Below, in pieces: positions 12,590 to 29,643 of a stretch of DNA of 64,000 bases. Source of the stretch: Clostridioides difficile ATCC 9689 = DSM 1296. GTDB taxonomy: Bacteria > Bacillota > Clostridia > Peptostreptococcales > Peptostreptococcaceae. Every line of letters begins with the position of its first letter. The first letter of the stretch is position 1. Under the pieces are notes generated by a model. The model did no database searches, was not told the DNA's origin, and saw nothing but the letters and a program-made list of their open reading frames with translations. The stretch covers positions 3,534,001 through 3,598,000 of the forward strand of contig NZ_CP011968.1 of the NCBI RefSeq assembly GCF_001077535.1, written 5' to 3'. Position numbers and translations under genes: made by a program.

Positions 12590-12630
12590 TCTGCTCACCT
12601 CTCAATTTTATTAAACTTATTTTATAAAAG

Positions 12631-12740: not shown

Positions 12741-15302
12741 TTACTTTTTTTTACTATATGGAGTATTTTGTAGTGGTAGCTCAGTTCTAAATTCTTTATC
12801 AAATACATAATAGGCATTTTGTACTGCTGGTGCAGTAGGAACTGTACAAATTTCTCCTACACCTTTTGCCCCATAAGCCAATAAATCTTTGTTCTTTTCA
12901 ACTATTAAAGCTTGTATTTCTGGTATATCTGTAGATTTAAATAAACCTAATGTACCAAACTTAGCTGTAGGAACAGAGTTGACTACTGGGTAATCTTCGG
13001 TTAGAGCATATCCAAGACCCATAACTACTCCACCTTCTATTTGACCTTCTAAACTGATTGGATTTATAGCTCTTCCAACATCATGTGCTGCTACTACTTT
13101 TTCTAGTTTTCCATTTTCATCCAGAATTACAACTTGTGTTGCATATCCATAAGCAACATGACTTACTGGATTTTCTTTGTCACAACCCATTTTATCTGTA
13201 ATACTTTCATATTCTCCATAAAACTCTTCTCCCTCTAAATCAAGTAAAGTTTTGCCAGAGTCTAAAGCTTCTTTTAACTTATTTGATGCAACCTTAGTAG
13301 CTTCTCCCGTAAATACTGTCTGTCTTGAAGCCGTAGTATTACCAGAGTCTGGTGTTAAATGAGTATCTGGAACTTCATGCACTATATTTTCAGGAAGTAG
13401 GTTAGCAGTTTCACAAACTACTTGAGTCATAACAGTACCAAGCCCTTGACCTATACAAGAAGCACTTGTTCTTATGTGAACTTTGCCATCTTTTATCACC
13501 AATCTACATCTTCCAACATCAGGTATACCAACTCCAACCCCACTATTTTTCATAGCACAAGCTATACCTGCACGTGGATGCTTTTCATACTCTTCTTTTA
13601 CAGCTTCTAGTGTCTCTGCCATTGCTGTTCCTTCATCTGCAAATTGACCATTTGGTAAAACTTGCCCAGGTCTTATTGCATTTTTATATCTTATCTCCCA
13701 AGGAGATATTCCAACCATTTCAGCAAGTAAATTTAGATTACATTCAGTTGCAAAACAACTCTGTGTAACTCCAAATCCTCTAAATGCTCCTCCAGGAGGG
13801 TTATTAGTATATACTGCTGTTCCTGTTATATCAATATCTTGATAATTGTATGGTCCTGCTGCATGAGTACACAGTCTTTGTAGCACTGGTCCTCCAAGAG
13901 AGGCATATGCACCTGTGTCAGATATTATCGTTGCCTTCATACCTGTTAAGTATCCATTTTCATCACATGCTGTCGTAAATTCCATTTCTGTGGCATGTCG
14001 TTTTGGATGAACAATAATACTTTCTTTTCTTGTTAACTGTACTTTTACAAATCTCTTTGTATGGTATGCAAGTAAGGCTGCATGGTGTTGAACACTCATG
14101 TCTTCTTTTCCACCAAACCCTCCTCCTACCATTTTGTTTATAACTCTTACCTTCTCATATGGTAACCCTAACATATCTGCACATTCATGTTGAGTGGCAA
14201 ACACCCCTTGGTCTGTTGAATAGATTATTACTCCATCCTCTTCATAAGGACCAGCTACTGCACATTCAGGCTCTAAAAATGCGTGTTCTGTAGCAGGTGT
14301 AGTATATCTTTTAGTTACAACATATTTTGAATTTTCTATCTTTTCTTTAGCGTTTCCTCTTACTAAATGTTCCTTAACAAGTATATTCCCTGTCTCATGT
14401 ATCTTTGGAGCATCTTCTCTAAGTGCATCTGCTGTAGTACTTAATGGTGTTAATTCCTCATAATCTATCTTAACTAGCTTTTTGGCCTCTTCTAACGCTT
14501 CTCTAGTTTCTGCTGCTACTAAAACTATTCCATCTCCTAAGTATCTAGTTATTTCACCTTCTGGTATTAAAGTATCCCAATCCTTCTTTAAGTGTCCTAC
14601 CTTTATAGTTCCTGGAATATCTTTAGCTGTTAGAACTGCAACAACTCCTGGATAAGCTTTTGCTTCTTCTATATCTATTTTTTTAACTAAAGCTCTAGGA
14701 TACTTAGCTCTAACTGCTGAGCCATAAATCATACCCTCAATTCTCATATCATCTACATATTCAGAATATCCAAGTGCTTTGCCAACTGCATCAACTCTAG
14801 GAAGATTTTCACCTACTAGACCTTTACAGTTTACTTTTGGCACATCTATATTTTCTCTAAAAATCTTTGCTGCTAAATCGACAGCTTTAATTATTTTTAC
14901 ATACCCTGTACATCTACATATATTACCTTTTAAAGCTTTCTTTATATCATCTTCAGTAGGATTATTATTAACGTCTATAAGTGCTTTTGAACTAATTACC
15001 ATACCTGGAATACAAAATCCACATTGTACAGCTCCTTGACTAGCAAAAGAATATGCAAAAACATCTCTTTCTCTCTCTGATAATCCCTCTATAGTTGTTA
15101 TGTTTTTCCCAACTAATTTATCAGTTTTAAATACACATGCTTTAGTAGCTTTACCATCTATTATAACCATACATGTTCCACAAGCACCTTCTGAACATCC
15201 ATTTTTAACTGAAGTTATATTCATATCTTCTCTAAGGAAGTCTAAAAGTTTTTTGCCTTCTTTTGCAACAACTTTCTCTCCATTTAATATAAATTCTACC
15301 AT
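12741..15302 (-). CDS. Selenium-dependent type xanthine dehydrogenase (molybdenum hydroxylase)
   Basis: This 853-aa fusion oxidises hypoxanthine/xanthine-type purines or runs in the reductive direction. N-terminal ferredoxin domain: Cys36, 41, 44 and 56 ligate one [2Fe-2S] cluster and Cys94, 97, 129 and 131 the second. From about residue 165 it is the molybdopterin catalytic subunit with GGGFGGKED, FRGFGVTQS and the C-terminal GAKGVGEICT that carries the active-site glutamate. No FAD subunit is fused. The one-chain layout without FAD matches the Se-dependent xanthine dehydrogenase family and E. coli XdhD. It overlaps the dihydropyrimidinase gene by seven bases and ends the cluster. Selenium dependence is inferred from the family; no in-frame TGA is present. 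Confidence 0.88.
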   Translation of the reverse strand: MVEFILNGEKVVAKEGKKLLDFLREDMNITSVKNGCSEGACGTCMVIIDGKATKACVFKTDKLVGKNITTIEGLSERERDVFAYSFASQGAVQCGFCIPGMVISSKALIDVNNNPTEDDIKKALKGNICRCTGYVKIIKAVDLAAKIFRENIDVPKVNCKGLVGENLPRVDAVGKALGYSEYVDDMRIEGMIYGSAVRAKYPRALVKKIDIEEAKAYPGVVAVLTAKDIPGTIKVGHLKKDWDTLIPEGEITRYLGDGIVLVAAETREALEEAKKLVKIDYEELTPLSTTADALREDAPKIHETGNILVKEHLVRGNAKEKIENSKYVVTKRYTTPATEHAFLEPECAVAGPYEEDGVIIYSTDQGVFATQHECADMLGLPYEKVRVINKMVGGGFGGKEDMSVQHHAALLAYHTKRFVKVQLTRKESIIVHPKRHATEMEFTTACDENGYLTGMKATIISDTGAYASLGGPVLQRLCTHAAGPYNYQDIDITGTAVYTNNPPGGAFRGFGVTQSCFATECNLNLLAEMVGISPWEIRYKNAIRPGQVLPNGQFADEGTAMAETLEAVKEEYEKHPRAGIACAMKNSGVGVGIPDVGRCRLVIKDGKVHIRTSASCIGQGLGTVMTQVVCETANLLPENIVHEVPDTHLTPDSGNTTASRQTVFTGEATKVASNKLKEALDSGKTLLDLEGEEFYGEYESITDKMGCDKENPVSHVAYGYATQVVILDENGKLEKVVAAHDVGRAINPISLEGQIEGGVVMGLGYALTEDYPVVNSVPTAKFGTLGLFKSTDIPEIQALIVEKNKDLLAYGAKGVGEICTVPTAPAVQNAYYVFDKEFRTELPLQNTPYSKKK

Positions 15303-16687
15303 TCTCTAGCCCCCTTTGTTAGACGCCTATTTATATATCTCCCACTTGGAGTATTACAGATTAATTCTCCATCTCTAACTACTTCTTTTCCTCTTAAATA
15401 AACATGTTCTATTTGACAATCCACTTCATACCCTTCATAAGGTGTATAATCTACATTTTGTAATTGTTTTTTTGCTTCTATTTTGGATTTTTTGTTTGGA
15501 TTTAAGACTAATATATCTGCATCACTGCCTATTTCTATAGTTCCTTTATTAGGATACATTCCAAACAACTTTGCTGGATTAGTTGATGTTACTTCTACCA
15601 TCTTGTTGATAGATATTTTATTTTTACAGACTCCATATGTGTATAAAAGACTCATCCTATGTTCTACACCTGGAGAACCATTTGGTATCTTACTGAAATC
15701 GTTTATCCCAAGTTCCTTCTGTCCCTTATAATTAAAAGAACAATGGTCTGTTCCTATAGTGTCTATTTGATTATCTAAAATAGCATTCCATAATATTTCA
15801 TTATTTTCTTTATTTCTTAAAGGTGGTGACATTACATACTTAGCACTTTCAAATCCATCTAAATCATATAATTCATCATTTAATAGAAGGTATTGAGGAC
15901 AAGTTTCAACTATTACATCCACACCTCTTTGCTTAGCTTTTAAAACCTCCTCTAAGGATTCTTTACAGCTTAAGTGAACTACATATACTTTAGAGTTTGC
16001 AACTTCAGCTATCTTCATAAGTCTTGATGTAGCTTCTGCCTCCATTATAGCTGGTCTAGTTAATTGATGATATTTTGGAGATAAATTATTTTCTGACTTT
16101 GCTTTATCCACAAGTTCACATATTATGTCCCCATTTTCACAATGGAAACCAATAATCCCTCCTATCTCTTCTGCTTTTCTCAATGCTTCAAAGATTACAC
16201 CATCATCAACTTGAAGGCTTCCTTTATACGCCATATACAGTTTAAATGAAGATACTCCCTCTTTCACCATATCCTCCATTTCATTACAAACCGAGTCATT
16301 CCAATCTGTTATAGCCATATGAAAGCCATAATCTGAATAGGATTTATCCTTAGCTTTTTCATGCCATTCTTCTAATCCGTCTTTCAAAGAACATCCTTTA
16401 TCTTGTGTAGCAAAATCCAATATAGTAGTAGTTCCTCCTACTATAGCAGCTTTTGTTCCTGTCTCAAAGTTATCTGCTGTCTTAGTAACGCCTGTATCTA
16501 AGTCAAAGTGTGTGTGTGTATCTATACCTCCTGGTATAACATAAGAATCACTAACATCAACTATTTCATCATTTTCTTTTGATATATCAAGACCTATATC
16601 GACTATTTTTTCATCTTCTATTCTTACATCTGCACAGTAAGTTTTTTCACTTGTTACTACTTTCCCACCTTTTAAAACAATTCCCAT
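15296..16687 (-). CDS. hydA: Dihydropyrimidinase (D-hydantoinase)
   Basis: Zinc amidohydrolase that opens the ring of 5,6-dihydrouracil or dihydrothymine, and hydantoins, to N-carbamoyl-beta-amino acids. The 463-aa protein has the metal motif GGIDTHTHFDLD (residues ~54-65), the bridging lysine in SSFKLYMAYKG, and later metal residues in GFHCENGD, VVHLSCKES and TIGTDHCSF. It is the step after PreA, which lies just upstream, and the reading frame overlaps the following xanthine dehydrogenase. The ATG has AAGGTGGAG before it. Phenylhydantoinase activity is an alternative. Confidence 0.9.
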   Translation of the reverse strand: MGIVLKGGKVVTSEKTYCADVRIEDEKIVDIGLDISKENDEIVDVSDSYVIPGGIDTHTHFDLDTGVTKTADNFETGTKAAIVGGTTTILDFATQDKGCSLKDGLEEWHEKAKDKSYSDYGFHMAITDWNDSVCNEMEDMVKEGVSSFKLYMAYKGSLQVDDGVIFEALRKAEEIGGIIGFHCENGDIICELVDKAKSENNLSPKYHQLTRPAIMEAEATSRLMKIAEVANSKVYVVHLSCKESLEEVLKAKQRGVDVIVETCPQYLLLNDELYDLDGFESAKYVMSPPLRNKENNEILWNAILDNQIDTIGTDHCSFNYKGQKELGINDFSKIPNGSPGVEHRMSLLYTYGVCKNKISINKMVEVTSTNPAKLFGMYPNKGTIEIGSDADILVLNPNKKSKIEAKKQLQNVDYTPYEGYEVDCQIEHVYLRGKEVVRDGELICNTPSGRYINRRLTKGAREW

Positions 16688-16969: not shown

Positions 16970-18079
16970 TTACTCATTCATAGCTTCTACTTGATTGTAG
17001 CAGATGCTTAAAGCTCCTTTTGGACATCTAGTTACACATAATCCACATCCAAAACACTTGTCTGCATCTATGTTCAACTTATCTGTAACTTCTAAAGCTT
17101 CGTATACACAGCTTGTTACACATTGCTTACATTTGATACACTTGTTATCATCCACTACTGGAGCTACTGAATGAGTTCTAAACCCTCTAGCTGCCATTTT
17201 CTTATGAGTTAATCCTTTTATTTCATTAACATCAGCATATCCATTCTCATCTAAAAATTCATTTAATTCTTTAGCAATTTTTCCATAGATAGAAGGCCCT
17301 TTAAGGATTGCTTCTGTACATACTTGAACAGCACTTGCTCCAGCCATCATCATTTCAGCCACGTCTTTTCCACAAGTGATTCCACCAACACCGATTATTG
17401 GTATATTTACAACTTGAGAAGCTTCATATATACATCTTATTGCTAGAGGTCTTATTGGTGCACCTGATAACCATCCGTATCCAGCTTTACTTCCCATTAT
17501 AGGGTATCCTGTATTTACATCTATTGCCATACATGGTCCAAATGAGTTTATCATTACAAGTCCATCTGCACCTGCTTCTTCAACAGCTTTTGCAATAGTT
17601 TGAATGTCAGTATGAGGACTCATTTTCATAAATACTGGTACATCTAAAACAGCTTTTGCAGCTTTTAAAGCATTTACTATTGGTGCAACGTCTGTACCTA
17701 CATAATGAGTAGATAATTCAACTGCATCTGCATAAGGCTTTACTAAAGGAGCAACCTCAGCTATTTGCTCTGCTGAATATCCCATACTTACTATTACTGG
17801 AAGCCCTGTTTCTTTTACCTTTTTGTATTCTTCCTCTATCCATTGCTCTTTTGGAAGCTCTGACCATAATTCTGTGTTTAAAAAACCACTATTAGTTTTT
17901 GCCATACATGGTCTTGGTACATCAGCTGGTAATACAGATATAGTTTTTGTACATATAGCTCCTGCTCCACCTTTTGCTGCCTCTTGACAGAGAGCACCAT
18001 CTTTTGCTCCAGGTCCTGCCGCTGTCATAATTGGATTTAAAAATTCCATTCCATATAAATTAACTTTTAAATTAGCCAT
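16970..18079 (-). CDS. preA: Dihydropyrimidine dehydrogenase catalytic subunit PreA-like
   Basis: This FMN TIM-barrel enzyme of the dihydroorotate dehydrogenase family is fused to a C-terminal two-cluster ferredoxin domain. In the 369-aa chain, residues 1-300 give the barrel (NPIMTAAGPGAKDG at the start, GVGGITCGKDVAEMMMAGASAVQVCT near the phosphate site). Near residue 313 CIKCKQCVTSC and near 343 CFGCGLCVTRCP bind two [4Fe-4S] clusters. In E. coli PreA works with the flavin subunit PreT to reduce uracil/thymine. No PreT gene lies in this window, so electrons may come from ferredoxin or a distant partner. It stands before the dihydropyrimidinase. Confidence 0.85.
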   Translation of the reverse strand: MANLKVNLYGMEFLNPIMTAAGPGAKDGALCQEAAKGGAGAICTKTISVLPADVPRPCMAKTNSGFLNTELWSELPKEQWIEEEYKKVKETGLPVIVSMGYSAEQIAEVAPLVKPYADAVELSTHYVGTDVAPIVNALKAAKAVLDVPVFMKMSPHTDIQTIAKAVEEAGADGLVMINSFGPCMAIDVNTGYPIMGSKAGYGWLSGAPIRPLAIRCIYEASQVVNIPIIGVGGITCGKDVAEMMMAGASAVQVCTEAILKGPSIYGKIAKELNEFLDENGYADVNEIKGLTHKKMAARGFRTHSVAPVVDDNKCIKCKQCVTSCVYEALEVTDKLNIDADKCFGCGLCVTRCPKGALSICYNQVEAMNE

Positions 18080-18270: not shown

Positions 18271-19623
18271 TTATTTTGCTTCTTCAACTTTATTATTTTT
18301 TTCTTTTTTAGAACCTAGTTCATTGAAGAATATGTTTAAAAGCACTGCTGATAAACTACCTGTTGTTATTCCACTATGGAATATTGTTTGTACCCAAGTT
18401 GGGAAATTATGATAGAAATCAGGATTTGTTAGTGGTATCATAGACAAACCAACACTAACTGCTACTATAACCCCATTTTTAGTTCCATCAAATTTCACTT
18501 TGCTTAAAGTTTTTACTCCTCCAACCATTACCATTCCAAACATTGCAAATCCTACGCCTCCAAGAACAGGCTTAGGTATTGCTCCTATTATTGCTGCAAA
18601 TTTTGGTAAGAATCCAAGTACTAGCAATATAACCCCTGCGTAAACTGCTATAAATCTTGATTTTATACCTGTAAGACCTACTATTCCTGTATTTTGACCA
18701 AATGGAGTTATTGGAAATGAATTGAATATTCCAGATAATGCTGTAGATATTCCATCTCCAAATAGACCTCTTTTAATATTTTTACCTGTTACTTCTTTGT
18801 CTACCATTTCATGAATAGCTATCATATTACCAACTGATTCCGTCATAAGTACCAACATAATCAAACACAATGATAGTATTGCAGATGGTTCAAATCTAGG
18901 CATTCCAAATTTTAAAGGTACATTTAAGTTAAGCCAACCAACTCCATTTACTGCACTAAAATCTGCCATTCCAACTGCCATGGAAAGTAGTGTACCAAGT
19001 ACTATACCTACCAATATAGCTGTGCTATTCCAAATTCCTTTTAAGAATTTAAATGAAAGTAAAGTTATTGCCAATACTGCTAAAGCTAATGCTAATGAGT
19101 TTGGTTCAACCGCTTCCAATTTGTTGTCAGTTATCCATTTTATCCCAACTGGAAATAGTGAAATACCTATTACCATAACAACTGTTCCAGTAACTACACT
19201 AGGGAAAAATCTTATTAATTTTTCAAATACTGGAGCAAGTAATATACAAAACAATCCAGCTACTATTACAGAGCCAAATACTGTCTGTATTGCAACTTGT
19301 GAATCACTATATGATGAGGCTATTGCTGTCATACCTGCCACAGCGGCAAAACTAGTTCCTTCTATTACTGGTATTTTAGCACCTACAATATTTCCTATAC
19401 CAACACTTTGTATGAGTGTTCCTATACCTGCCATAAACAAGCAAGCATTTATTAAAAAAACAATACTAGCATGATCTAGTCGTGCAGCACTTCCTATCAT
19501 CATAGGAACTGCTACTGCTCCTGCACACATTGCTAAAACGTGCTGTAGTGAAAATACCCAAGATTTGGATACAGGTAACCTTTCATCTACTGGAGCTATT
19601 TTAGGGCTTTTATCTCGAGACAT
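18271..19623 (-). CDS. Xanthine/uracil family permease (NCS2)
   Basis: This 450-aa membrane protein has about 12-14 hydrophobic segments and imports a purine or pyrimidine base by proton or sodium symport. NCS2 landmarks are the N-terminal SLQHVLAMCAGAVAVPMMIG, the substrate region VIEGTSFAAVAGM, and the TM8-TM10 stretch ESVGNMIAIHEM then FPITPFGQNTGIVGLTG. The Asn-x-Gly-like FGQNTG motif and the run that follows fit the xanthine/urate branch (PbuX, YgfU, PucJ) better than uracil-specific UraA, but this is inference. It lies between ssnA and preA in the purine/pyrimidine degradation cluster, which supports a base-import role. Confidence 0.88.
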   Translation of the reverse strand: MSRDKSPKIAPVDERLPVSKSWVFSLQHVLAMCAGAVAVPMMIGSAARLDHASIVFLINACLFMAGIGTLIQSVGIGNIVGAKIPVIEGTSFAAVAGMTAIASSYSDSQVAIQTVFGSVIVAGLFCILLAPVFEKLIRFFPSVVTGTVVMVIGISLFPVGIKWITDNKLEAVEPNSLALALAVLAITLLSFKFLKGIWNSTAILVGIVLGTLLSMAVGMADFSAVNGVGWLNLNVPLKFGMPRFEPSAILSLCLIMLVLMTESVGNMIAIHEMVDKEVTGKNIKRGLFGDGISTALSGIFNSFPITPFGQNTGIVGLTGIKSRFIAVYAGVILLVLGFLPKFAAIIGAIPKPVLGGVGFAMFGMVMVGGVKTLSKVKFDGTKNGVIVAVSVGLSMIPLTNPDFYHNFPTWVQTIFHSGITTGSLSAVLLNIFFNELGSKKEKNNKVEEAK

Positions 19624-19821: not shown

Positions 19822-21150
19822 TTAAATTCTATTCCATAGATTTTGACTTAATTCTCTACTTTTTGCTAGAATACTTTCTTCATCTATGTTTATTAACTTT
19901 CTATCTTTCATAAGTACCTTTCCACTTATAATAGTTGTATCTACGCTTCTTCCACTCATTCCAAAAATAGTGTGTCCCCCTATTGTATTTTCTGTCAATG
20001 GAGTATGTGGTATATAATCAACTACTATAACATCTGCATAAGCACCTTTTTTAAGTACTCCTAGGTCATTTTTATAATAAGCTTTAGCTATTTTTCTATT
20101 GTTATCAAATAACATTGTTTGTGATTCTTCAAATCCAACTCTTGGGTCTTTTAAGTGATGTTTGTGAATTATATTGGCAACTTTTAATGATTCAAACATA
20201 TCGCTAGTATATCCATCAGTTCCTAATCCTACTGTAACTCCCCTTTTTAATAACTCTATTGCAGGAGAACATCCAACTGCATTTCCCATATTAGATTCTG
20301 GATTATGAACTACAAATGTATTTGTTTTATTTAAAAGACTGATTTCTTCTGCACTTATATATATACAATGAACTGCTATTGTTTTTTCTTTTAGTACTCC
20401 AAAATCATTGAATCTTTCTAAAACCCTTTTTCCATATTTATCTACATTATATTGTAAGTCTGCTAGTCCTTCAGCAACATGTACATGGTAACCTGTATCA
20501 AGACCAGCTATCTCTGAAGCACATTTATTTAATGTATCATCAGATAGTGTAAATGCAGCATGAAGCCCAAACATTCCTTTTATCATGTCTGTATCATCTT
20601 TTTGAGCGTATTTTATAAAGTTTACGTTTTCATTGATACCTTGTTGGATTGTATTTCCACCATCTCTATCAGACACTTCATAACAAAGACACGTTCTAAT
20701 TCCCAAATCCTTTGCAACATCTGATATTGTAAACAAACTGCCTTCAATTGCATTTGGACTTGCATGATGGTCATAAACTGTTGTTACACCATTTTTTATA
20801 CATTCTATATACGTTGCATATGCACTGTATTTTGTATCTTCCAGTGTAAGCTGTTTGTCAAGTCTCCACCATAAATTGTTTAGTATCTCTAAAAAGTTCT
20901 CAGAAGGTTTTCCTGGAACTGCCATTCCTCTAGCAAATGAGCTGTATATATGCATATGTGAATTTATTAGACCCGGCATGATTATTTTCTTGCCTGCATC
21001 TATAAATTCATGTACTGGATATTTAGCTTTCATTTCTTCTGTAGTACCTATATCTTCAATTAGATTATCATTTATTACTACACATCCATCTTCCATATAG
21101 GGATTTAAAGAATCTTGGCTTATTAGCCTCCCATTCCCCACTAAAATCAT
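19822..21150 (-). CDS. ssnA: SsnA-type aminohydrolase
   Basis: This 442-aa amidohydrolase-superfamily protein is related to guanine/adenosine deaminases and chlorohydrolases. Metal motifs are visible: LINSHMHIYSS near residue 62, YHVHVAEGL near 220, the histidine in TIAVHCIYI, and GLGTDGYTSDM near 300. SsnA is repeatedly found with YgeX, YgeY, Xdh and selenium metabolism genes, exactly the company here; its true substrate is unproven, and a deaminated or ring-opened purine is likely. AAGGAGG lies before the ATG. A 28-bp gap to the D-aminoacylase-like gene indicates one operon. Confidence 0.85.
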   Translation of the reverse strand: MILVGNGRLISQDSLNPYMEDGCVVINDNLIEDIGTTEEMKAKYPVHEFIDAGKKIIMPGLINSHMHIYSSFARGMAVPGKPSENFLEILNNLWWRLDKQLTLEDTKYSAYATYIECIKNGVTTVYDHHASPNAIEGSLFTISDVAKDLGIRTCLCYEVSDRDGGNTIQQGINENVNFIKYAQKDDTDMIKGMFGLHAAFTLSDDTLNKCASEIAGLDTGYHVHVAEGLADLQYNVDKYGKRVLERFNDFGVLKEKTIAVHCIYISAEEISLLNKTNTFVVHNPESNMGNAVGCSPAIELLKRGVTVGLGTDGYTSDMFESLKVANIIHKHHLKDPRVGFEESQTMLFDNNRKIAKAYYKNDLGVLKKGAYADVIVVDYIPHTPLTENTIGGHTIFGMSGRSVDTTIISGKVLMKDRKLINIDEESILAKSRELSQNLWNRI

Positions 21151-21177: not shown

Positions 21178-22761
21178 TTAATTTTTAAGTACTTTTCCTG
21201 CTTTAATTTTATTGTATTTTCCTTCTTCAACAACACAATTTCCATTTATAATTACGTAATCTATACCTGTAGGGTACTGCATAGAGTTGATAAAATCATC
21301 ACAACCACTAACTGTATCCTTGTCAAATATAACTATATCTGCAAAATATCCTTCTTTTAATTCGCCTCTATCTTTTATACTAAAGCTTGTAGCTGCCTTT
21401 TTAGTCATTTTATAAACAGCTTCTTCGATTGTTAACACATTCAACTCTCTAACATATCTTCCTAGTATTTTAGGGAAAGAACCATAAGCTCTTGGATGTG
21501 GTTTACCTGCTAAAAGACCATCTGTACACACATTTTGCTCGTCTCTTTTCATGAATCCTATTATATGTTCTTCTAATCCATAGAAATCTACCATCCCAAC
21601 TGCATTTTCTTCTTCTTTTAATAAATCAAACGTTGCATCTAATGGGTCTTTTCCTCTCATTTTTCCAATTTCTAATAAGCTCTTACCAATTGTATCTTTA
21701 TTCTTTTCTGTTTTTACGCTTGTTACAAATATTTGGTCTATTCCAGCAAATTCTATAAAATTATCCCAGCCTTCTATTCCATTTGCTATATCTTTTTTCA
21801 TTTTTGCTCTTTCGTTTTCATCACTTAATCTTTCTATTAACTTATCAGTTCCTCCAGAATGTGCCCAAGGAGGTAAAACTACTCCAAGCATTGTACTTCC
21901 TGCTGCATATGGATATTGGTCAAAAGATACTCTTATTCCTTCCTTTTCTGCTTTTTCTAAAAGCTCTATAACTTGTGGTATATACTTCCAGTTTGCTTTA
22001 CCACAAACCTTAAAATGTGAAAAATGAACTTTTACTCCTGATTGTTTTCCAATTTCTATGATTTCTTCCATTGAAGTTAAAATTGTATCTGCTTCACTTC
22101 TTTGGTGAACTACAAATACTCCGTCATATTTTGCTACTACCTTACACATCTCTATAATTTCTTCAGTCAATGAGTATGCACAAGGTATATATATAAGTCC
22201 AGTAGACAATCCTATAGCTCCTGCTTTTAATTCTCTCTCTGTGATTTCACACATTTTTTGAATTTCTTCTTTAGTAGCAGGTCTATCTTCAAGTCCCATA
22301 GCTTCCATTCTAACGTTTCCATGAGGTACTAAATAAGTTTCATTTAAACCTACCCCATTGTAATCCATCATTTTTAAATAATTCTCTGTTGTTTCATATT
22401 TCCAATCAATTTCATCACTTTCACCATCTAGACCTGCTAAATTTTTTCTCCAAGAAGATATATGCTCTTGAGGTAGAGGGGCCATAGATATACCATCTTG
22501 GCCCAACACTTCTGTTGTAATTCCCTGTCTAATCTTTACCTCATTATATGGATTAACTAAAATAACTAGGTCTGAATGGCTATGAGTATCTATGAAACCT
22601 GGACATATAACTCTACCTTTTGCATCTATAACTTTGTCAGCTTCTTCGTTTAAATCTTGTGATATTTTTAATATTTTCTCGTTTTCTATTAAAATATCTC
22701 CTTCATATGCTGGTGTTTTATTTCCATCTACTATAAGCCCATGTTTTATTAAAGTTCTCAT
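21178..22761 (-). CDS. D-aminoacylase / N-acyl-D-amino-acid deacylase family
   Basis: This 527-aa zinc amidohydrolase of the D-aminoacylase type hydrolyses N-acyl- or N-carbamoyl-D-amino acids in the cytosol. The metal motif is CPGFIDTHSHSDL near residue 62; histidines follow in VVHQRSEAD and KVHFSHFK, and the family signatures SFDQYPYAAGSTMLG and VCTDGLLAGKPHPRAYG lie near 275 and 435. Length fits the family (480-540). It sits 15 bases before ygeY, in the same transcript. In a purine/hydantoin pathway it may take N-carbamoyl products; that is inference from neighbours. Confidence 0.85.
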   Translation of the reverse strand: MRTLIKHGLIVDGNKTPAYEGDILIENEKILKISQDLNEEADKVIDAKGRVICPGFIDTHSHSDLVILVNPYNEVKIRQGITTEVLGQDGISMAPLPQEHISSWRKNLAGLDGESDEIDWKYETTENYLKMMDYNGVGLNETYLVPHGNVRMEAMGLEDRPATKEEIQKMCEITERELKAGAIGLSTGLIYIPCAYSLTEEIIEMCKVVAKYDGVFVVHQRSEADTILTSMEEIIEIGKQSGVKVHFSHFKVCGKANWKYIPQVIELLEKAEKEGIRVSFDQYPYAAGSTMLGVVLPPWAHSGGTDKLIERLSDENERAKMKKDIANGIEGWDNFIEFAGIDQIFVTSVKTEKNKDTIGKSLLEIGKMRGKDPLDATFDLLKEEENAVGMVDFYGLEEHIIGFMKRDEQNVCTDGLLAGKPHPRAYGSFPKILGRYVRELNVLTIEEAVYKMTKKAATSFSIKDRGELKEGYFADIVIFDKDTVSGCDDFINSMQYPTGIDYVIINGNCVVEEGKYNKIKAGKVLKN

Positions 22762-22776
22762 AAAACCATCTCCTAA

Positions 22777-23964
22777 TTATTTTTTATAAACTGATTTTAA
22801 TATACCATAATATCCTTCTGCACCTTTGAATAATTGGTCTAATTCTATATACTCATCTATTGTATGAGCAAGATTTTCCTTAGAAGGACCAAATCCTATA
22901 GTTCTTATTCCAGCCTCACCTGCGTAGTGACTTCCATTCGTACAGAATGAGTATTGAGTTATTTCTGAATCTATTCCAGCTTCTTTTAATCCCTTATACG
23001 CTGCTTGAACAAATTCATCTTCTTCATCATATAACCAACCTGGGAAGAATCTTTCACTTTCTATAGTATTTCCTGTATAGCAATCAGCTTTTTCAACTGC
23101 ATAAGAAACTTTTGCATTTAATTCTGGGTCTTCTTTCATCATTTCATCTAATAAAGCTTGTATTGGAGCTAATACGCCTTCTCTTGTTTCTCCAACTAAT
23201 AATCTTCTATCAAAAGTAGCTTTGCAATAATCTGGCACTACTGATGCTCCTGGATATGGAGAAGATTTTATATCTGTTAAAACTAATATTCCATCACCTA
23301 AAACTGGATGAGTTGGAGGTACTAATTGTTGTATCTTTTGGATTACATTAGCCATTTTATAAACTGCATTTATACCTTTTTCTGGATTAGCAGAGTGAGC
23401 TGGTTTACCAAAAGTTTCTACTACTATTTCTCCTCTACCTCTTTGACCTATCTTTAGGTTTAATTCTGAAGATTCACCTATTACAACATAATCAGGTTGA
23501 ACAGCCTTACTTATCTCTCTAGCTGAAACACCTTCAAATATTTCTTCATGAACAACACCTGCTACATACAATTCACCTTCAAAGTCTTTGTTAGTATCTT
23601 CTGCAAAATATGAAACAGCAGCCATCATAGCACTTACTTGCCCCTTCATATCAGAAGTTCCTCTACCATATATTTTCCCATCTACTATTCTCGCTTCAAA
23701 AGGAGGAACACTCCATTTACTTGCATCTGGAACTGGAACTGTATCTATATGCCCGTCAAATAATATTTTTTTACCTGGTTTATTTCCTTTTATACATCCT
23801 ACTATATTTCCATATCTATCTCTTGACCAACTATCAAAACCTAGTAAAGCAAAATTTTCTTCTATAGCTTTTACTACGTTTTCTTCTTGACCTGAATAAC
23901 TAGCATTTCTTATTAAGTCTTGGCATACTTCAGTTAATTGTTTTTTTCTTGTTTCATTTAACAT
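22777..23964 (-). CDS. ygeY: YgeY family M20 hydrolase
   Basis: This 395-aa di-zinc peptidase/deacylase of the M20 family carries GHIDTVPVPD (first metal histidine), the bridging aspartate in GRGTSDMKGQ, the general-base pair in GVVHEEIFEG, and IGESSELNLKIGQRGRGE. YgeY is the selenium-metabolism-linked branch of M20 enzymes, usually placed beside YgeX and SsnA as here. Its substrate is not established. GGGGGAA precedes the ATG. A 332-bp T-rich (A-rich in the mRNA) gap separates it from ygeX, but no terminator hairpin was seen in it, so readthrough from the sigma-54 promoter is plausible. Confidence 0.88.
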   Translation of the reverse strand: MLNETRKKQLTEVCQDLIRNASYSGQEENVVKAIEENFALLGFDSWSRDRYGNIVGCIKGNKPGKKILFDGHIDTVPVPDASKWSVPPFEARIVDGKIYGRGTSDMKGQVSAMMAAVSYFAEDTNKDFEGELYVAGVVHEEIFEGVSAREISKAVQPDYVVIGESSELNLKIGQRGRGEIVVETFGKPAHSANPEKGINAVYKMANVIQKIQQLVPPTHPVLGDGILVLTDIKSSPYPGASVVPDYCKATFDRRLLVGETREGVLAPIQALLDEMMKEDPELNAKVSYAVEKADCYTGNTIESERFFPGWLYDEEDEFVQAAYKGLKEAGIDSEITQYSFCTNGSHYAGEAGIRTIGFGPSKENLAHTIDEYIELDQLFKGAEGYYGILKSVYKK

Positions 23965-24296
23965 TTTGATATTCCCCCATATAATTTTTAGTTTGTTGAC
24001 GTTTTATTTTGATATTTCACTTTTTTAATTTATTAGCATTTCACTTAATCTATTGATTTTTTATTTCTTTATATTTTATTTATTAAATTTTTATTTAGAC
24101 TTTATTTTAATTTTATTTGGTTTTATTTAATTTTATTTAGTTTTTATTTTGAATTTTTCATTTGCTTTACTTTTTCATTTATTTAGATTTTTCATTTGTT
24201 TTAGTTTTTATTTTATTTAAAGTTTTCACTTATTTAAGTTTTTATTTTCCTTAAATTTTTCATTTATTTGTTAAGTTTTTCTTTTCCTTAAGTCTT
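23965..24296. other. Low-complexity spacer between ygeX and ygeY
   Basis: About 330 bp made almost only of degenerate TTTTTATTTTATTTA/TTTTTCATTTATTTA units of about 20 bp. There are no hairpin terminator, promoter of note or coding frame. In the mRNA this is an A-rich, unstructured stretch inside the proposed operon. Confidence 0.55.
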
Positions 24297-25511
24297 TTAT
24301 TTACTTTGGCATTCACCATTCCAAACTATATCTCTATATTTATCAGGGTCAGTATCTCCTTCTGTACTTATTAATAATACTTTAGAGTTCTCATCTAGTT
24401 TCAAAGCTTCTCTTAAGTCTTTTAAATCTTCACTTTCAAGGATTGAAACTAATGCTCCAGTTGTAACTGCTCCAGATTCTCCAGAGATTACTTTCTCATC
24501 TCCTCTTAGAGGGTTTCCTAATATTCTCATACCTTTAGCAGATACCCAGTCTGGTGCTGAAACGAATGCTGATGAATAATTTTTTAACACTTCAAAACCT
24601 ATAGTGTTTGGTTCTCCACAAGCAAGCCCTGCCATTATAGTTGGCATATCTCCTCCAACAAATCTTGGTTTTCCATCTCCAGCTTCTGCTGATTTATAGT
24701 AACAATCAGCCTCATCAGCCTCTACTACTACTGTTATTGGGCATTCATCATATATTGAAGCAACATATCCTTGAACTGCACCAGCAAGTGAACCAACTCC
24801 TGCTTGAACAAATACGTGTGTTGGTCTATCTACTCCATATTCTTTTAATTGTTCTATAGCTTCTTTAGCCATAGTTCCATATCCTTGCATTATCCATGCT
24901 GGTATTTCTTCATATCCGTCCCATGCTGTATCTTGAACCATTACTCCATGGTCATCAGCTTCTGCATAATCATTAGCTAATCTTACTGCATCATCATAGT
25001 TTAAGTCTGTTATACTAGCATCTGCACCTTCTCCTTTGATTTTATTTAATCTAAATTCAGAAGAACCTTTTGGCATTAATACAACAGATTTTTGACCTAA
25101 TTTATTAGCTGTCCAAGCAACTCCTCTACCATGATTTCCATCTGTAGCTGTAAAGAAAGTTATTTCTCCTAATTTTTCTTTTATTTCTTTTGAAGTTAAT
25201 TTATCATACCCTAACTCAGATATATCTGTATTTAATCTTTGAGCTAAGTATCTACCCATAGAGTAAGAACCACCTAAAACTTTAAATGCGTTTAAGCCAA
25301 ATCTATAAGATTCATCTTTAACATATATTCCGCTTACGCCTAGTAATTTTGCTAAGTTATCTAATTTAACTAAAGGAGTCTTTTCATATTGTGGAAAGCT
25401 CTCATGAAAAGCTTTAGCCTTTGCAATCTCTTCATCTTTTAAAAATTCAATTCCTTTTTCTTTTTCCTCTGATTTAGGTAAGTTATTTAATTTCCATTTT
25501 ATTTCTCTCAT
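24297..25511 (-). CDS. ygeX: Diaminopropionate ammonia-lyase
   Basis: PLP enzyme (DpaL/YgeX) that converts D- or L-2,3-diaminopropionate to pyruvate and two ammonia through an enzyme-bound and partly released 2-aminoacrylate. The PLP lysine is Lys77 in FGLNAFKVLGG, the same number as in E. coli. The substrate aspartate region TATDGNHGRG starts at residue 121, and QDTAWDGYEEIPAW and the PLP-phosphate loop AGVGSLAGAV follow. The 404-aa length is normal. It heads the catabolic cluster, and a near-perfect sigma-54 promoter lies 69-84 bases upstream. Ammonia and pyruvate release fits use as an energy and nitrogen source. Confidence 0.93.
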   Translation of the reverse strand: MREIKWKLNNLPKSEEKEKGIEFLKDEEIAKAKAFHESFPQYEKTPLVKLDNLAKLLGVSGIYVKDESYRFGLNAFKVLGGSYSMGRYLAQRLNTDISELGYDKLTSKEIKEKLGEITFFTATDGNHGRGVAWTANKLGQKSVVLMPKGSSEFRLNKIKGEGADASITDLNYDDAVRLANDYAEADDHGVMVQDTAWDGYEEIPAWIMQGYGTMAKEAIEQLKEYGVDRPTHVFVQAGVGSLAGAVQGYVASIYDECPITVVVEADEADCYYKSAEAGDGKPRFVGGDMPTIMAGLACGEPNTIGFEVLKNYSSAFVSAPDWVSAKGMRILGNPLRGDEKVISGESGAVTTGALVSILESEDLKDLREALKLDENSKVLLISTEGDTDPDKYRDIVWNGECQSK

Positions 25512-25579
25512 TTATTTTATATTCCCCTTTCAAATTTTTCGGTGTCATTTTAATTTTTTATCTTTGTGCCTTATAGCAA

Positions 25580-25595
25580 AGCAATTACCGTGCCA
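25580..25595 (-). promoter_or_regulatory. Sigma-54 promoter of ygeX
   Basis: The minus strand reads TGGCACGGTAATTGCT, matching the -24/-12 consensus TGGCACG-N4-TTGCW at every fixed position, 69-84 bases before the ygeX ATG. Confidence 0.92.
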
Positions 25596-25707
25596 ATATT
25601 ATTTATTCTAAAAACAATTTTTTTATGTTGGAATTACATACTTTTATAAAATTTCTTTAAAGTTTATAAATTTTGAGTGTGAAAAATAAGATTTATAAAA
25701 GAAAAAA

Positions 25708-25755
25708 TTCTCATATTGGGAAATTTTTATCAATACGAGAATTATCAATTCGAGA
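25708..25755. promoter_or_regulatory. Enhancer-like sites for a sigma-54 activator (ygeX)
   Basis: TTCTCATATTGGGAA, then TATCAATACGAGAA and TATCAATTCGAGAA. The first is inverted against the other two. The same three-part arrangement occurs at 29598-29643 before ridA. It lies about 113 bases upstream of the -24 element, a normal enhancer distance. Confidence 0.75.
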
Positions 25756-26124
25756 AATCGTTTATTTGTCTTAATTCTTCCTTTATTATGCTCTTATTTT
25801 TTATATGTCTATTGTTTTGTCAGATATATTACTACTTTTATTTTCTATAAATATATGGCTATAACCTTCTTACGCATAAACTCTATAAATTTATATACTT
25901 TATATACTTTATATTCTTTATTACCCAAAGCCTCCAAAATGGCTTAAATCTTTTCATAGCTTCTTACAGAAGTTTACATGGGCGTCCCCCCAATAAGCAA
26001 AAGTGCAATATGTGTACCATTGTGCCCTACTTGCGACTATTGAGCTGTCGAAATTCGCAACTTCGCATTTATCTGATGAAATGCACTATACAAAATATTC
26101 ATAACATCCACAACAGAGTTAAAG

Positions 26125-26664
26125 TTACCTATTCATATTCACTGTAAAAATTTCTTCCACAGGAAATGTAATTTTAACCAATCCTATTGAGACAAACTCA
26201 CCACTTATTTTTTTGAACTCACGCAGTAATACATCACTTGCCCGAAAAAAAGCCTCACTTTCATCATCTCCAGTAAGTGCTATTGTGCAATGGGGTACCC
26301 AACGATTGGGGTGGTACCATTCCCAACCATTTGAATCAAAATCTTGTAGTACCTCATATAATTCTCTCTGAAACTGATACATACTGCTATTCATTATAGG
26401 TGATACAAACACCGTTTTAGTATCATTAAACATGCCTACTGAACCAATGTAAGCAGGTATTACCTTATGGTTTTGTGCAAACCCCTTTAGCTTGTCTATG
26501 CAACAAGCCTCATCCACATCATTGAAACAAGCCAAAGTAAGATGAGGTCTTGTTTTCCATTCTAAGTACTTCGTACTAATTTTTTCATCAGCGATTTTTT
26601 TAGATAAATCAAAAAGTTGCTTTTCCGTTTTTTTATCATAATATAGCTCTATCGCATATTGCAT
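26125..26664 (-). CDS. 2H phosphoesterase / 2'-5' RNA ligase family protein
   Basis: This 179-aa protein has two HxT/S motifs spaced as in the 2H phosphoesterase fold: HLTLACF near residue 45 and HCTIALTG near residue 128. Relatives (LigT, ThpR, YjcG) act on 2',3'-cyclic or 2'-5' phosphodiester bonds in RNA or small nucleotides; the substrate here is unknown. GGAGGTG precedes the ATG. Its base composition, with runs such as GGGGTGGTACC, is richer in G+C than the neighbours. It stands between the sigma-54 activator gene and the enhancer of ygeX, suggesting a later insertion. Confidence 0.8.
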   Translation of the reverse strand: MQYAIELYYDKKTEKQLFDLSKKIADEKISTKYLEWKTRPHLTLACFNDVDEACCIDKLKGFAQNHKVIPAYIGSVGMFNDTKTVFVSPIMNSSMYQFQRELYEVLQDFDSNGWEWYHPNRWVPHCTIALTGDDESEAFFRASDVLLREFKKISGEFVSIGLVKITFPVEEIFTVNMNR

Positions 26665-26740
26665 AATAACACCTCCACCATAAAGTAAAAATACCTATCT
26701 ATAAAAACACACAAATACCTATCATTTTAATATTATATTA

Positions 26741-28546
26741 CTACTGTTCCTCTTCCAATTTTCTATATAGTGTAGCCAAACCTATGCCTAAGTCTTTTGC
26801 TATCTTCTTCTTCGTCTTTGTATCTCTTCCATACTTATTCAACAACTTGTTTATGTAAGTCAACTCTAATTCTTTAATTGAAAGTATCCTTTCTTGATTC
26901 TCTACTATCCCTCCAACTATATCATCTTCAAATATTATATTTACATCCTTATTTTTATAAATATTTCCATTAATATTATAATAGTTTAAAATATCTAATG
27001 GAAGCATATCTTTATATATTATTCCATCATCTCCAACCAAATTCATCATATATTCAACTGCATTTTCCAGTTCCCTTATATTTCCCGGCCAATTATAGTT
27101 AATCAACATATTCATTACATTTTCTTCTATTTTATTTAACTGAATACCTAATTCTAAAGAATATTTAGAAGCAAACTTCATCATTATTGCCTCAATATCA
27201 TCCTTTCTTTCCCTAAGAGGTGGCAAATTTATAGGAATTACATTCAATCTATAGTATAAATCATCCCTAAACTTACCTTCATTTACTAATTTCAATAAGT
27301 TTTTATTTGTAGCAGCAATCACTCTTATATCTAAATCTATAAGTTTATTTGACCCAATTCTCGCAAATTTTCTCTCTTGTAAAACTCTAAGTAACTTTGC
27401 TTGTAAAGGCATTGACAAATCTCCTATTTCATCAAGAAATATAACACCTTCATTTGCAAGTTCAAATTTACCTACTTTCCCTCCACTACTAGCTCCACTA
27501 AATGCACCTTTTATATAGCCAAATAGCTCACTTTCAAGGAGATTTTCTGGAATAGCAGCACAGTTTATCGCAATAAATGGCTTGTTCCATCTGCTACCTT
27601 CAGCATGTATAGCCCTAGCAATTAGCTCTTTACCCGTACCACTTTCCCCAGTTATAAGTACAGTTGAATTTGACTTTGCTAATTTCTTAGTTCTCTCTTT
27701 TACTTTTAACATTGCTTCTGAATTTCCAATTATAGACTCTATATCACTATTTCCCCAGCCACTATTCACTTTTCCATGTCCTTTATGATTGATATATGTC
27801 TTGTCAAATATTATTATTTTGTCGTATTGATTTATATATGGATATACCGGAATTATTTTGGCATTTATATTATAAATTTTGTTATCAATATCAATTTCTA
27901 GTAATTCATGTCCATTTGAGGAAGATTCAACAGATACTATATTTACTATATTTTCTATTATATTTTTATCTATATCTAATTTTTTTAGAGCTATATTGTT
28001 TATATAAGATATTTTGCTATTTATGTCTAGTATTATAACGCCTTTTTCAACATTTTCAATGATTTCTATCATCATATCCATTTTTCTACTGCTATTTTTT
28101 GACGCTTCATGTTCTTCTATTTTCATAGAAATTAAATCGCATATATGATTAACAAATTTTAAATAATTATCTATTTTTGCACTTATTTCTACTTTTTTAG
28201 TTTTATCTGTACTAATAGCACCAATTACTCCTATAGTTCGATTATTATACTTTATTGGAACTGCTATTATTACTTTATTTAAGCATTTCATGTAATGGGA
28301 ACATTCTATACAAAGCTGATTATCACATATATCCAATACGACTAATTCCTGACCTGTCTGTATAACATTGTCATAAATAAATCCTTCTGTAACAACGCTT
28401 TCATTTATCTTTGATTTATACAGACCTGTACCACTAATTCTTATTAATCTATCGTCAACTATTTCAATATCTACATCTAACACACTAGCTACTGTTTCAG
28501 TGTATTTTATCATTTCTTGTTGAAATTCTTTTAATTTACTTAACAT
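26741..28546 (-). CDS. Sigma-54-dependent transcriptional activator (GAF/PAS-AAA+-Fis)
   Basis: From the second ATG (28546, five bases after GGGGGA) the protein has 601 residues. Residues 1-140 form a GAF-like sensor with four close cysteines (C74, C79, C82, C88). A PAS-like segment spans about 160-255. The AAA+ domain has Walker A GESGTGKE (300-307), GAFSGA (347-352) in place of the usual GAFTGA, and Walker [11 protein letters not shown] (367-376). The C-terminal Fis-type helix-turn-helix is [19 protein letters not shown]. No receiver domain, so it senses a ligand directly. It lies between two sigma-54 promoters with matching enhancers, which it very likely activates. A terminator (28748-28816) separates it from ridA. 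Confidence 0.9.
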
Positions 28547-28558
28547 AGTTTCCCCCAT

Positions 28559-28941
28559 TAGAATTTAATTTACCAAATTATCAGTTTAGCTATATTTTAA
28601 CATATAGTCACTCTTTAAAATATATATAAAACATTACTTATTTATATATTTGCGTTAAAACAGACAATATTAATTTATAAAAAGTTTGTTTTATATAGTA
28701 ACCTTAATTATAATATGCAGACAATAAAATAAATCACAATACAATAATAAAAAAAAGCTTTCCTCATATAACAAATATATTTTTGACATAAAAATATACA
28801 TTATATGAGAAAAGCTCAATAGTTAAATATTTAGATAGATTTTTATATAGACTTTTTTAATATAAACTTTTTTAATTGTAGACTTTTTTTATTAGTTTTT
28901 AATTTTTATTAGTTTTGTTATTGGTTTTATTGTTATAATAC
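28559..28941. other. Region between ridA and the sigma-54 activator gene
   Basis: Holds the long-stem terminator at 28748-28816 and T-rich repeats (ATAGACTTTTTTAATATAAA-like, 28840-28930). No gene was seen. The activator promoter must lie between about 28560 and 28740, but I cannot assign it. Confidence 0.5.
28748..28816 (-). terminator. Long-stem terminator after ridA
   Basis: AGCTTT and CTCATATAA (28756-28771) pair with TTATATGAG and AAAGCT (28801-28816). The loop contains a second possible stem (AATATATTTTT/AAAAATATA). The minus strand ends in eight T. Confidence 0.8.
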
Positions 28942-29319
28942 TTATAATACTGCCATTGCTTCAATTTCTAAAACTGCATCTTTTGGTAATTGAGCAACTT
29001 GTACGCATGACCTTGCTGGTGGATTTTCTTTAAAATATGTAGCATATACTTCATTAATATCATTAAAATCCTTTAAATCTTTTACGAATACTGTAGTCTT
29101 AAATATTTTATCCATACTTGTACCAGCTTGTTCTAATATTGCTTTTACATTATCTAAAGAAGCTTTTGTTGCTTCTTTTGGGTCAGATACTAACTCGCCA
29201 GTCTTCATATCTATTGGAAGTTGACCTGATGTAGAAACTATGTTTCCAACTTGAATTGCTTGAGAATATGGTCCAATTGCTCCTGGAGCTTTCTCTGTAG
29301 CTATTACTACTTTTGACAT
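28942..29319 (-). CDS. ridA: RidA family 2-iminobutanoate/2-aminoacrylate deaminase
   Basis: This 125-aa trimeric enzyme hydrolyses reactive enamine/imine intermediates such as 2-aminoacrylate to keto acids and ammonia. Landmarks: APGAIGPYSQAIQVG at the N-terminus, TSGQLPID, and the substrate arginine in NPPARSCVQVAQLP near residue 104 followed by the glutamate in LEIEAMAVL. AGGAGGTGAAGTC lies before the ATG. It has its own sigma-54 promoter (29477-29492) with enhancer sites like those of ygeX. YgeX chemistry releases 2-aminoacrylate, so co-regulation makes sense as built-in detoxification. Confidence 0.95.
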   Translation of the reverse strand: MSKVVIATEKAPGAIGPYSQAIQVGNIVSTSGQLPIDMKTGELVSDPKEATKASLDNVKAILEQAGTSMDKIFKTTVFVKDLKDFNDINEVYATYFKENPPARSCVQVAQLPKDAVLEIEAMAVL

Positions 29320-29476
29320 GACTTCACCTCCTATTATTAAGTTATATTTACAGGAAAATAAAATTTCCTAAACACCAATATTAATACGAACCTTTAGATT
29401 AAATTTCAAATCTAAAACTTCAAATAATCAATACTTAGATGATTATGTTTATTTGTGTCTTGTTAACTTTTATTAA

Positions 29477-29492
29477 AGCAATTAACGTGCCA
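29477..29492 (-). promoter_or_regulatory. Sigma-54 promoter of ridA
   Basis: The minus strand reads TGGCACGTTAATTGCT, matching the -24/-12 consensus at every fixed position, about 160 bases before the ridA ATG. Confidence 0.92.
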
Positions 29493-29597
29493 AACTTTAT
29501 TTATATATAAAATTTTGTGAAGTCATTCAAAATAGTTACTTCTGAATTTTTTCGTCAAAAAACGCTCTAAAATTACTTTTTTATGATGTCAATTTTT

Positions 29598-29643
29598 TTC
29601 TCATATCTAGAAATTTACCAACATGAGAATTCTTGTTTTGAGA
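29598..29643. promoter_or_regulatory. Enhancer-like sites for a sigma-54 activator (ridA)
   Basis: TTCTCATATCTAGAAATTT, then CCAACATGAGAA and TTGTTTTGAGAA. This aligns with 25708-25755: the first half-site is inverted against two following GAGAA sites. It lies about 106 bases upstream of the -24 element. Confidence 0.75.

Follow-up and report, generated by a model that had tools for sequence, protein, structure and literature searches.

A predicted DioR-controlled sigma-54 regulon of Clostridioides difficile that probably pairs the lyase YgeX with a RidA-type deaminase

In the tdc operon of E. coli, the genes of a 2-aminoacrylate-forming dehydratase (tdcB) and of a RidA-type protein (tdcF) are under joint control. 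We describe a comparable pairing in Clostridioides difficile, which relies on twin sigma-54 promoters rather than on one operon and involves a different lyase: ygeX (dpaL2), coding for a diaminopropionate ammonia-lyase, and ridA (tdcF), coding for an enamine/imine deaminase, lie on either side of dioR, the gene of a sigma-54 activator. All three are located in a 64-kb window, i.e., the whole stretch of DNA analysed (positions 3534001-3598000 of the 4.15-Mb genome). By its gene order, and by a match of 98-99% between its DioR N-terminal region and named C. difficile contigs, the window belongs to this species. A Rid gene placed beside a pyridoxal phosphate (PLP)-dependent lyase or dehydratase that makes 2-aminoacrylate is reported in passages of Niehaus et al. 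2015 (PMC4433059); the main text of that paper does not contain the word “diaminopropionate”, and “sigma” occurs in it once, as the name of a supplier.

The regulon itself has been published as a prediction. DioR is listed with dpaL-pyrC-argE, tdcF, yqeB, pbuX and others, its function being given as unknown, in Table 1 of Nie et al. 2019 (PMC6615313). Both promoter sequences considered here appear, letter for letter, in Table 4 of Soutourina et al. 2020 (PMC7438776), assigned to CD3186/DioR2, and dpaL2 is lowered there to 0.3 by quantitative reverse-transcription PCR in the sigL::erm strain. The likeness to our locus is thus complete as to the activator, the two promoters and the targets dpaL and tdcF, and the linkage is less of a discovery than an earlier note on this DNA had presented it to be. 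The differences concern the interpretation: “aminoacrylate” does not occur in the main text of PMC7438776, RidA was not found in that of PMC6615313, and the examined sections of the two papers hold neither the operon form, nor the logic of paired lyases, nor the aminoacrylate rationale described below. The genes of the ygeX/ridA regulon, searched by name, are absent from the SigL papers PMC12069270 and PMC9130780, and in the literature searched, at the level of listings, abstracts and passages, no publication was found that joins DioR, dpaL and detoxification by RidA.

The biochemical side is likewise described in part. Release of 2-aminoacrylate by diaminopropionate ammonia-lyase is reported for Salmonella in passages of PMC9239102 and PMC9127364, as the earlier note stated for YgeX. 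According to sections of PMC12507026, the reductive uric-acid pathway was reconstituted with UacX, HyuA and UacY of C. difficile and, at its end, YgeY and YgeX of E. coli; the cluster treated there comprises the same C. difficile genes (xdhD, uacX, ssnA, hyuA, uacY, ygeY, ygeX), and neither RidA nor aminoacrylate occurs in the main text. Uric acid and other purines are named as host-derived nutrients usable by C. difficile in the abstract of PMC11448449.

We believe that DioR probably runs a small sigma-54 regulon, in which YgeX and the uric-acid operon are joined with RidA as a safeguard against 2-aminoacrylate. The GAF-PAS N-terminus of DioR would respond to a signal, probably a small molecule, and the protein would bind six 15-bp units, three in front of ygeX and as many in front of ridA; from there it would loop over about 100-160 bp and, with its AAA+ domain, open the sigma-54 polymerase at the two start sites. 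At ygeX, the promoter would drive the lyase and probably, by read-through, the reductive uric-acid operon behind it, while the ridA promoter would drive a co-induced RidA-type deaminase, and the latter would hydrolyse the 2-aminoacrylate released by YgeX before PLP enzymes are damaged. Judged from sequence, co-regulation of ygeX and ridA appears well supported; that RidA detoxifies the YgeX product is plausible.

The sigma-54 criterion was a GG-N10-GC core with the flanking consensus TTGGCA-N6-TTGCT, and the scoring matrix came from the published C. difficile SigL promoters of PMC7438776 Table 4: of the 30 rows, those of dpaL2, tdcF and dpaL1 and one member of an identical pair were removed, which leaves 26. 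With this matrix the near-consensus -24/-12 elements before ygeX and ridA, pointed out in the earlier note, are the only two strong ones in the window (Table 1); the next-best site has 12.3 bits, and simulated windows (n=50) contain on average 0.1 site of at least 18 bits. As the window has no other site above 13 bits, the ygeX operon contains none. A genome-wide scan with the strict consensus gave 24 sites, and the reversed control gave 0.

Upstream of each promoter, by about 105-160 bp, lies a predicted enhancer block. The three TTCTC/GAGAA half-sites of the earlier note are there, in the same order at both genes (plus-strand positions 25708, 25737 and 25752, and 29598, 29625 and 29640), and the distance of 106-113 bases given for them is close to that of the nearest ends, at about 112 bp (ygeX) and about 105 bp (ridA) upstream of the -24 element. 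They are better read as the strong ends of three 15-bp units per promoter, of the form TTCTC-N5-G[AG][GT]AA. In both blocks the unit nearest the promoter is inverted, and the other two follow each other head to tail at a spacing of 15 bp. The units were gathered by exact TTCTC (53 units, 24 unique), and only the second half of the unit is therefore a result, the first being given by the collection rule.

The bare TTCTC...TTCTC...GAGAA pattern occurs 3 times in the genome and 3 times in the reversed control, and for a simpler dyad the numbers are 8 and 10; being no rarer than its control, the bare pattern was rejected as a genome-wide signature. As the half-sites alone are unconvincing, we used a matrix trained on ygeX enhancers outside the genus: 13 unique 15-mers from ygeX promoters outside Clostridioides, with three irregular ones left out, each promoter being scored by the sum of its three best matches. 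Over the 24 strict sigma-54 promoters of the genome, ygeX ranks first (59.0) and ridA second (44.9), the others ranging from 29.6 to 0.1, and the top sum in random sequences (n=1500) is 37.0, below both. The score of ridA is independent of the training data in gene as well as in genus. In the window there are 12 matches of at least 12 bits on the two strands; 11 come from the six units, and the remaining one is at 2272. The enhancer owes its significance to the 15-bp unit and the conservation of this unit.

Two other promoters linked to DioR score within the random range. The DioR1-linked pbuX promoter is third of the 24 (29.6), and that of dpaL1, the third published DioR2 target, is fifth (22.0), so that the matrix gives dpaL1 no strong support. 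The dpaL1 gene (L016:6118-7332) is a second ygeX copy, 89% identical, which heads a second purine-type cluster; the DioR-like units at its sigma-54 promoter are weak. A core identical to that of the dpaL1 promoter is found in one more strict sigma-54 consensus (L039:1501-1518; 3622050-3622067 of the genome, plus strand). For about 690 bases downstream the plus strand has no start of an open reading frame of at least 40 amino acids, the gene that comes next is oriented the other way, and Table 4 of PMC7438776 lists this promoter sequence for dpaL1 only; a non-coding or antisense transcript is possible.

The conservation of the arrangement was followed in relatives. The N-terminal region of DioR was searched in 119 related genomes (E 1e-15); 86 have matches, mostly distant activators, and 16 genomes, C. 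difficile included, have one of at least 55% identity over this region. The loci compared were those of all 15 other genomes with close dioR and three at 33-36% identity (45-46% over the whole protein), further dioR-like matches at 27-34% not being taken in. Three half-sites are present at the ridA promoter in 8 of 8 Clostridioides genomes and at the ygeX promoter in 7 of 8 (in G002 the contig ends before ygeX), these eight being closely related and not independent cases. All three Metaclostridioides mangenotii genomes have the ygeX enhancer, and their ridA has a sigma-54 promoter with two clear units. The ygeX enhancer is also kept in Romboutsia weinsteinii, Faecalimicrobium dakarense, G024 and two Paraclostridium-group genomes, with three exact half-sites in four of these five and two in G058. 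When upstream regions were aligned (12 of 15 for ygeX and 7 of 11 for ridA, near-duplicates within Clostridioides being left out), the conserved blocks were the -24/-12 core and the enhancer.

The same genes also occur in a different arrangement. A ridA of 79-82% identity directly follows xdh in R. weinsteinii, F. dakarense and G024 (the alignments are 21-28 bp apart) as the last gene of the ygeX-headed operon, and rpoN comes next. The F. dakarense operon spans two contigs and that of G024 crosses record ends, the pieces being read apart; its continuity in these two is inferred from the ssnA and xdh genes split across the pieces. Altogether, among the 16 genomes with close dioR, ridA has its own promoter beside dioR in 11, is in the operon in 3, and shows neither form in 2. 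Both arrangements support the coupling of ygeX and ridA, and two routes to the same co-expression are stronger functional evidence than the promoters alone. The shared regulon proposed in the earlier note is partly supported, by an enhancer unit of one kind at both promoters and by a ridA tied to the ygeX operon in two ways; it is already in print.

A parallel circuit is found in the family. Two ridA paralogues with sigma-54 promoters were found in other gene surroundings. This kind of paralogue, ridA2, is present in 6 of 71 genomes of the family (search at E 1e-42), each time with a sigma-54 promoter within about 100 bp upstream, and in 5 of the 6 a sigma-54-driven gene of the PatB C-S lyase is nearby (TIGR04350 gives 484 and 486 bits for the two products tested). 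Passages of PMC4433059 list cystathionine beta-lyase among the sources of 2-aminoacrylate. The order in four genomes is sigma-54 promoter, ridA2, a gene of 84 amino acids, a sigma-54 activator, a second sigma-54 promoter, patB and nhaC, which is the same plan as ridA-dioR-ygeX. In G038 the second sigma-54 promoter precedes nhaC, and patB was not found within the 18 kb examined. In F. dakarense the order is rearranged, with two patB copies and an activator that reads in two pieces; a protein of 422 amino acids with three Rid domains in a row (L145:6832-8100) is encoded there between the sigma-54-driven ridA2 and patB.

The promoters of this circuit have their own word, a GGTTAAA-N20/21-TTTAACC dyad, which with at most 2 mismatches precedes all six ridA2 genes and 5 of 6 partner promoters; patB1 and the second patB of F. 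dakarense have 3 mismatches. The same criterion is reached by 22 of 1000 random sequences and by 2 of the 24 C. difficile sigma-54 promoters, one of them that of its own patB-type gene (L034), which no ridA2 accompanies in the C. difficile genome. The test is not independent, since the word was read from the same promoters. YgeX and PatB belong to unrelated families. We are inclined to see here a recurrent design of Peptostreptococcaceae, in which a sigma-54 activator switches a 2-aminoacrylate-releasing PLP lyase and, through a second promoter with the same enhancer, a dedicated RidA. It would rather likely extend over two lyases of unrelated families and as many activators, enhancer codes and RidA paralogues (DioR/YgeX/ridA and CD2732-like/PatB/ridA2), and other genera seem, on balance, to reach the same end with ridA at the end of the lyase operon.

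Several observations weigh against the safeguard regulon as we propose it. In Table 4 of PMC7438776 the tdcF cell beside the sigL::erm value of dpaL2 is blank. In the two Paraclostridium-group genomes (2 of 16) that keep the ygeX enhancer, only a ridA paralogue of 56% identity is found, elsewhere in the genome (the paralogue search covered 13 of the 19 genomes with dioR loci); the coupling of ridA to ygeX is not universal. The three genomes with distant dioR (G052, G041 and G023) have a sigma-54 promoter before ygeX, no exact TTCTC units near it and no ridA of the window type in these loci, so that conservation of the enhancer code does not reach these genomes. The C-terminus of DioR has no match to the Fis-type helix-turn-helix (PF02954) at E 0.001, although it is helix-turn-helix-like by eye. 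An AT-rich gap of 332 bp (23965-24296) separates ygeX from ygeY and leaves read-through unproven; it has no terminator-like site on the minus strand, but since terminator and sigma-70 scans of the window at 11-30 kb give no more sites than shuffles do, read-through is neither proved nor excluded.

The other Rid proteins of C. difficile bear on the question in two ways. Three proteins of the genome match the Rid family in Pfam, ridA included. One is a second full RidA (TIGR00004, 191.9 bits), encoded 94 bp behind the gene of threonine ammonia-lyase, a classical source of 2-aminoacrylate; the third has 56.7 bits, below the cut-off of 106.25. The second RidA could cover 2-aminoacrylate, which is one more point against a dedicated safeguard, and the existence of this backup weakens the prediction of a strong phenotype for a single mutant. 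Its position behind threonine ammonia-lyase and the parallel PatB-RidA paralogue circuit count in favour of the safeguard.

Among the alternatives, the one that survives best, unlikely as we consider it, accepts co-regulation by DioR and lets RidA act on a different reactive imine or enamine, formed in the pathway or in general amino-acid metabolism. The Rid proteins have a range of imine substrates; the abstract of PMC8113886 describes RutC of the E. coli pyrimidine operon as a 3-aminoacrylate deaminase, and sections of PMC12507026 show several nitrogen-rich intermediates in the uric-acid pathway. However, the ridA product reaches 90 bits with the RutC model, whose cut-off is 169, while exceeding the general Rid cut-off, and RutC identity was rejected; YgeX is the pathway step with enamine release reported for its family, and in the parallel circuit the partner of ridA2 is again a lyase of the 2-aminoacrylate type. 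It is less probable still that both genes depend on sigma-54 through different activators, e.g., DioR at ygeX and another of the many activators of the genome at ridA. Similar GAGAA/TTCTC words do stand, in another arrangement, at a SarR-type promoter (L028), and Metaclostridioides lacks the third ridA unit or has it in degenerate form; yet the 15-bp matrix gives the SarR-type promoter 17.7 against 59.0 and 44.9, and the units of ridA and ygeX change together, both taking the TTCTCGTTATGATAA form in Metaclostridioides. Finally, the resemblance of the two promoter regions, just 3.9 kb apart, could suggest that ridA is a housekeeping gene that happens to be adjacent and received its promoter by local duplication, with no functional coupling, but apart from the enhancer and the -24/-12 core the regions align poorly by eye, and the retention of the same ridA in the operon, at a different place, in three genera appears already to disfavour this very improbable explanation.

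As to the proteins, the ygeX product matches the solved diaminopropionate ammonia-lyases 5ygr and 4d9g, and the ridA product matches RidA/TdcF/YabJ structures. The latter reads PARSCVQVA in the alignment with other Rid proteins and so has the arginine of the PAR-x-C motif, which we take to be the essential catalytic one. Residues 1-268 of DioR give a GAF-like plus PAS-like AlphaFold2 model (14 sequences; mean predicted local distance difference test score 82.2, predicted template-modelling score 0.62); in Foldseek the top match of the N-terminus is an integrative WalK-YycH model, followed by DhaR(N), with the GAF domains of CodY and NifA lower and low whole-length template-modelling scores. 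The AAA+ loop reads GAFSGA in the translation, and a passage of PMC6615313 names GAFSGA as a functional variant of the GAFTGA-type loop. Three cysteines (83, 86 and 92; C-x2-C-x5-C, window 28283-28312) are invariant in 14 DioR orthologues, and a metal, Fe-S or redox role is possible. The dioR match of G024 has one in-frame stop codon flagged by the search.

Table 1. Features of the regulon and of its neighbourhood, in window positions.
Feature	Position	Strand	Score or remark
Sigma-54 (-24/-12) promoter of ygeX, TTGGCACGGTAATTGCTTT	25578..25596	-	27.1 bits; 66 bp before ygeX
Sigma-54 (-24/-12) promoter of ridA, TTGGCACGTTAATTGCTTT	29475..29493	-	24.8 bits; 155 bp before ridA
DioR enhancer unit 1 of ygeX, TTCTCGAATTGATAA	25742..25756	-	19.9 bits, predicted; abuts unit 2 head to tail
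DioR enhancer unit 2 of ygeX, TTCTCGTATTGATAA	25727..25741	-	18.8 bits, predicted
DioR enhancer unit 3 of ygeX, TTCTCATATTGGGAA	25708..25722	+	20.3 bits, predicted; inverted
DioR enhancer unit 1 of ridA, TTCTCAAAACAAGAA	29630..29644	-	15.4 bits, predicted
DioR enhancer unit 2 of ridA, TTCTCATGTTGGTAA	29615..29629	-	15.7 bits, predicted
DioR enhancer unit 3 of ridA, TTCTCATATCTAGAA	29598..29612	+	13.3 bits (13.8 on - strand), predicted; inverted
ridA (tdcF), enamine/imine deaminase	28942..29319	-	TIGR00004, 168.2 bits (cut-off 106.25)
dioR (DioR2), sigma-54 activator	26741..28558	-	PF00158, 240.6 bits; GAF-like and PAS-like N-terminus, AAA+
2'-5' RNA ligase-like open reading frame	26125..26664	-	PF13563; between dioR and ygeX
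ygeX (dpaL2), diaminopropionate ammonia-lyase	24297..25511	-	TIGR03528, 661 bits (cut-off 532)
ygeY	22777..23964	-	NF009555, 537.8 bits; downstream in the ygeX-headed gene run
uacY, amidohydrolase	21178..22761	-	Amidohydrolase models, scores below cut-offs; name and gene content from PMC12507026
ssnA	19822..21150	-	NF005540, 714.8 bits
pbuX-type purine permease	18271..19623	-	TIGR03173, 481.4 bits
uacX, PydA-like reductase	16970..18079	-	Name from PMC12507026
hyuA, hydantoinase	15296..16687	-	TIGR02033, 610.1 bits
xdh, selenium-dependent xanthine dehydrogenase family	12741..15302	-	TIGR03311, 1657 bits
rpoN, sigma-54 gene	11243..12598	-	142 bp after xdh

The genes follow one another on the minus strand in the order ridA, dioR, the RNA ligase-like frame, ygeX, ygeY, uacY, ssnA, pbuX, uacX, hyuA, xdh and rpoN. 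As ygeX heads this co-directional run of reductive uric-acid genes, the label “purine/diaminopropionate catabolism” of the earlier note is fair. The note had also placed the activator gene between the two promoters, where it is indeed found; the RNA ligase-like frame, which it did not mention, lies there too. This frame has no match of at least 50 bits in the loci of the 18 relatives and appears to have been inserted in this lineage, making the dioR-ygeX gap longer. The gap between ygeX and ygeY is filled with degenerate tandem repeats of 10-17 and 34 bp and measures about 135-250 bp in five other Clostridioides genomes where it was seen. The rpoN gene follows the uric-acid operon on the same strand in two Clostridioides and two Metaclostridioides genomes, R. 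weinsteinii, F. dakarense and G024, and is not behind it in the two Paraclostridium-group genomes, G052 and G023; read-through into rpoN from a sigma-54-driven operon could create positive feedback.

The core has little novelty; what is of interest is that the lyase-RidA pairing recurs, and the patB/ridA2 circuit, the safeguard reading and the operon form are additions to a regulon known as a prediction. The significance for the clinic or for evolution at large is modest. For the organism itself, the uric-acid pathway ends with a type of enzyme from which a reactive enamine is released. If the proposed coupling is true, a safeguard wired in beforehand would account for the presence of a “regulatory endoribonuclease” (tdcF) in the DioR regulon, whose function is listed as unknown, and RidA genes with sigma-54 promoters would provide a rule for finding other lyases that release 2-aminoacrylate.

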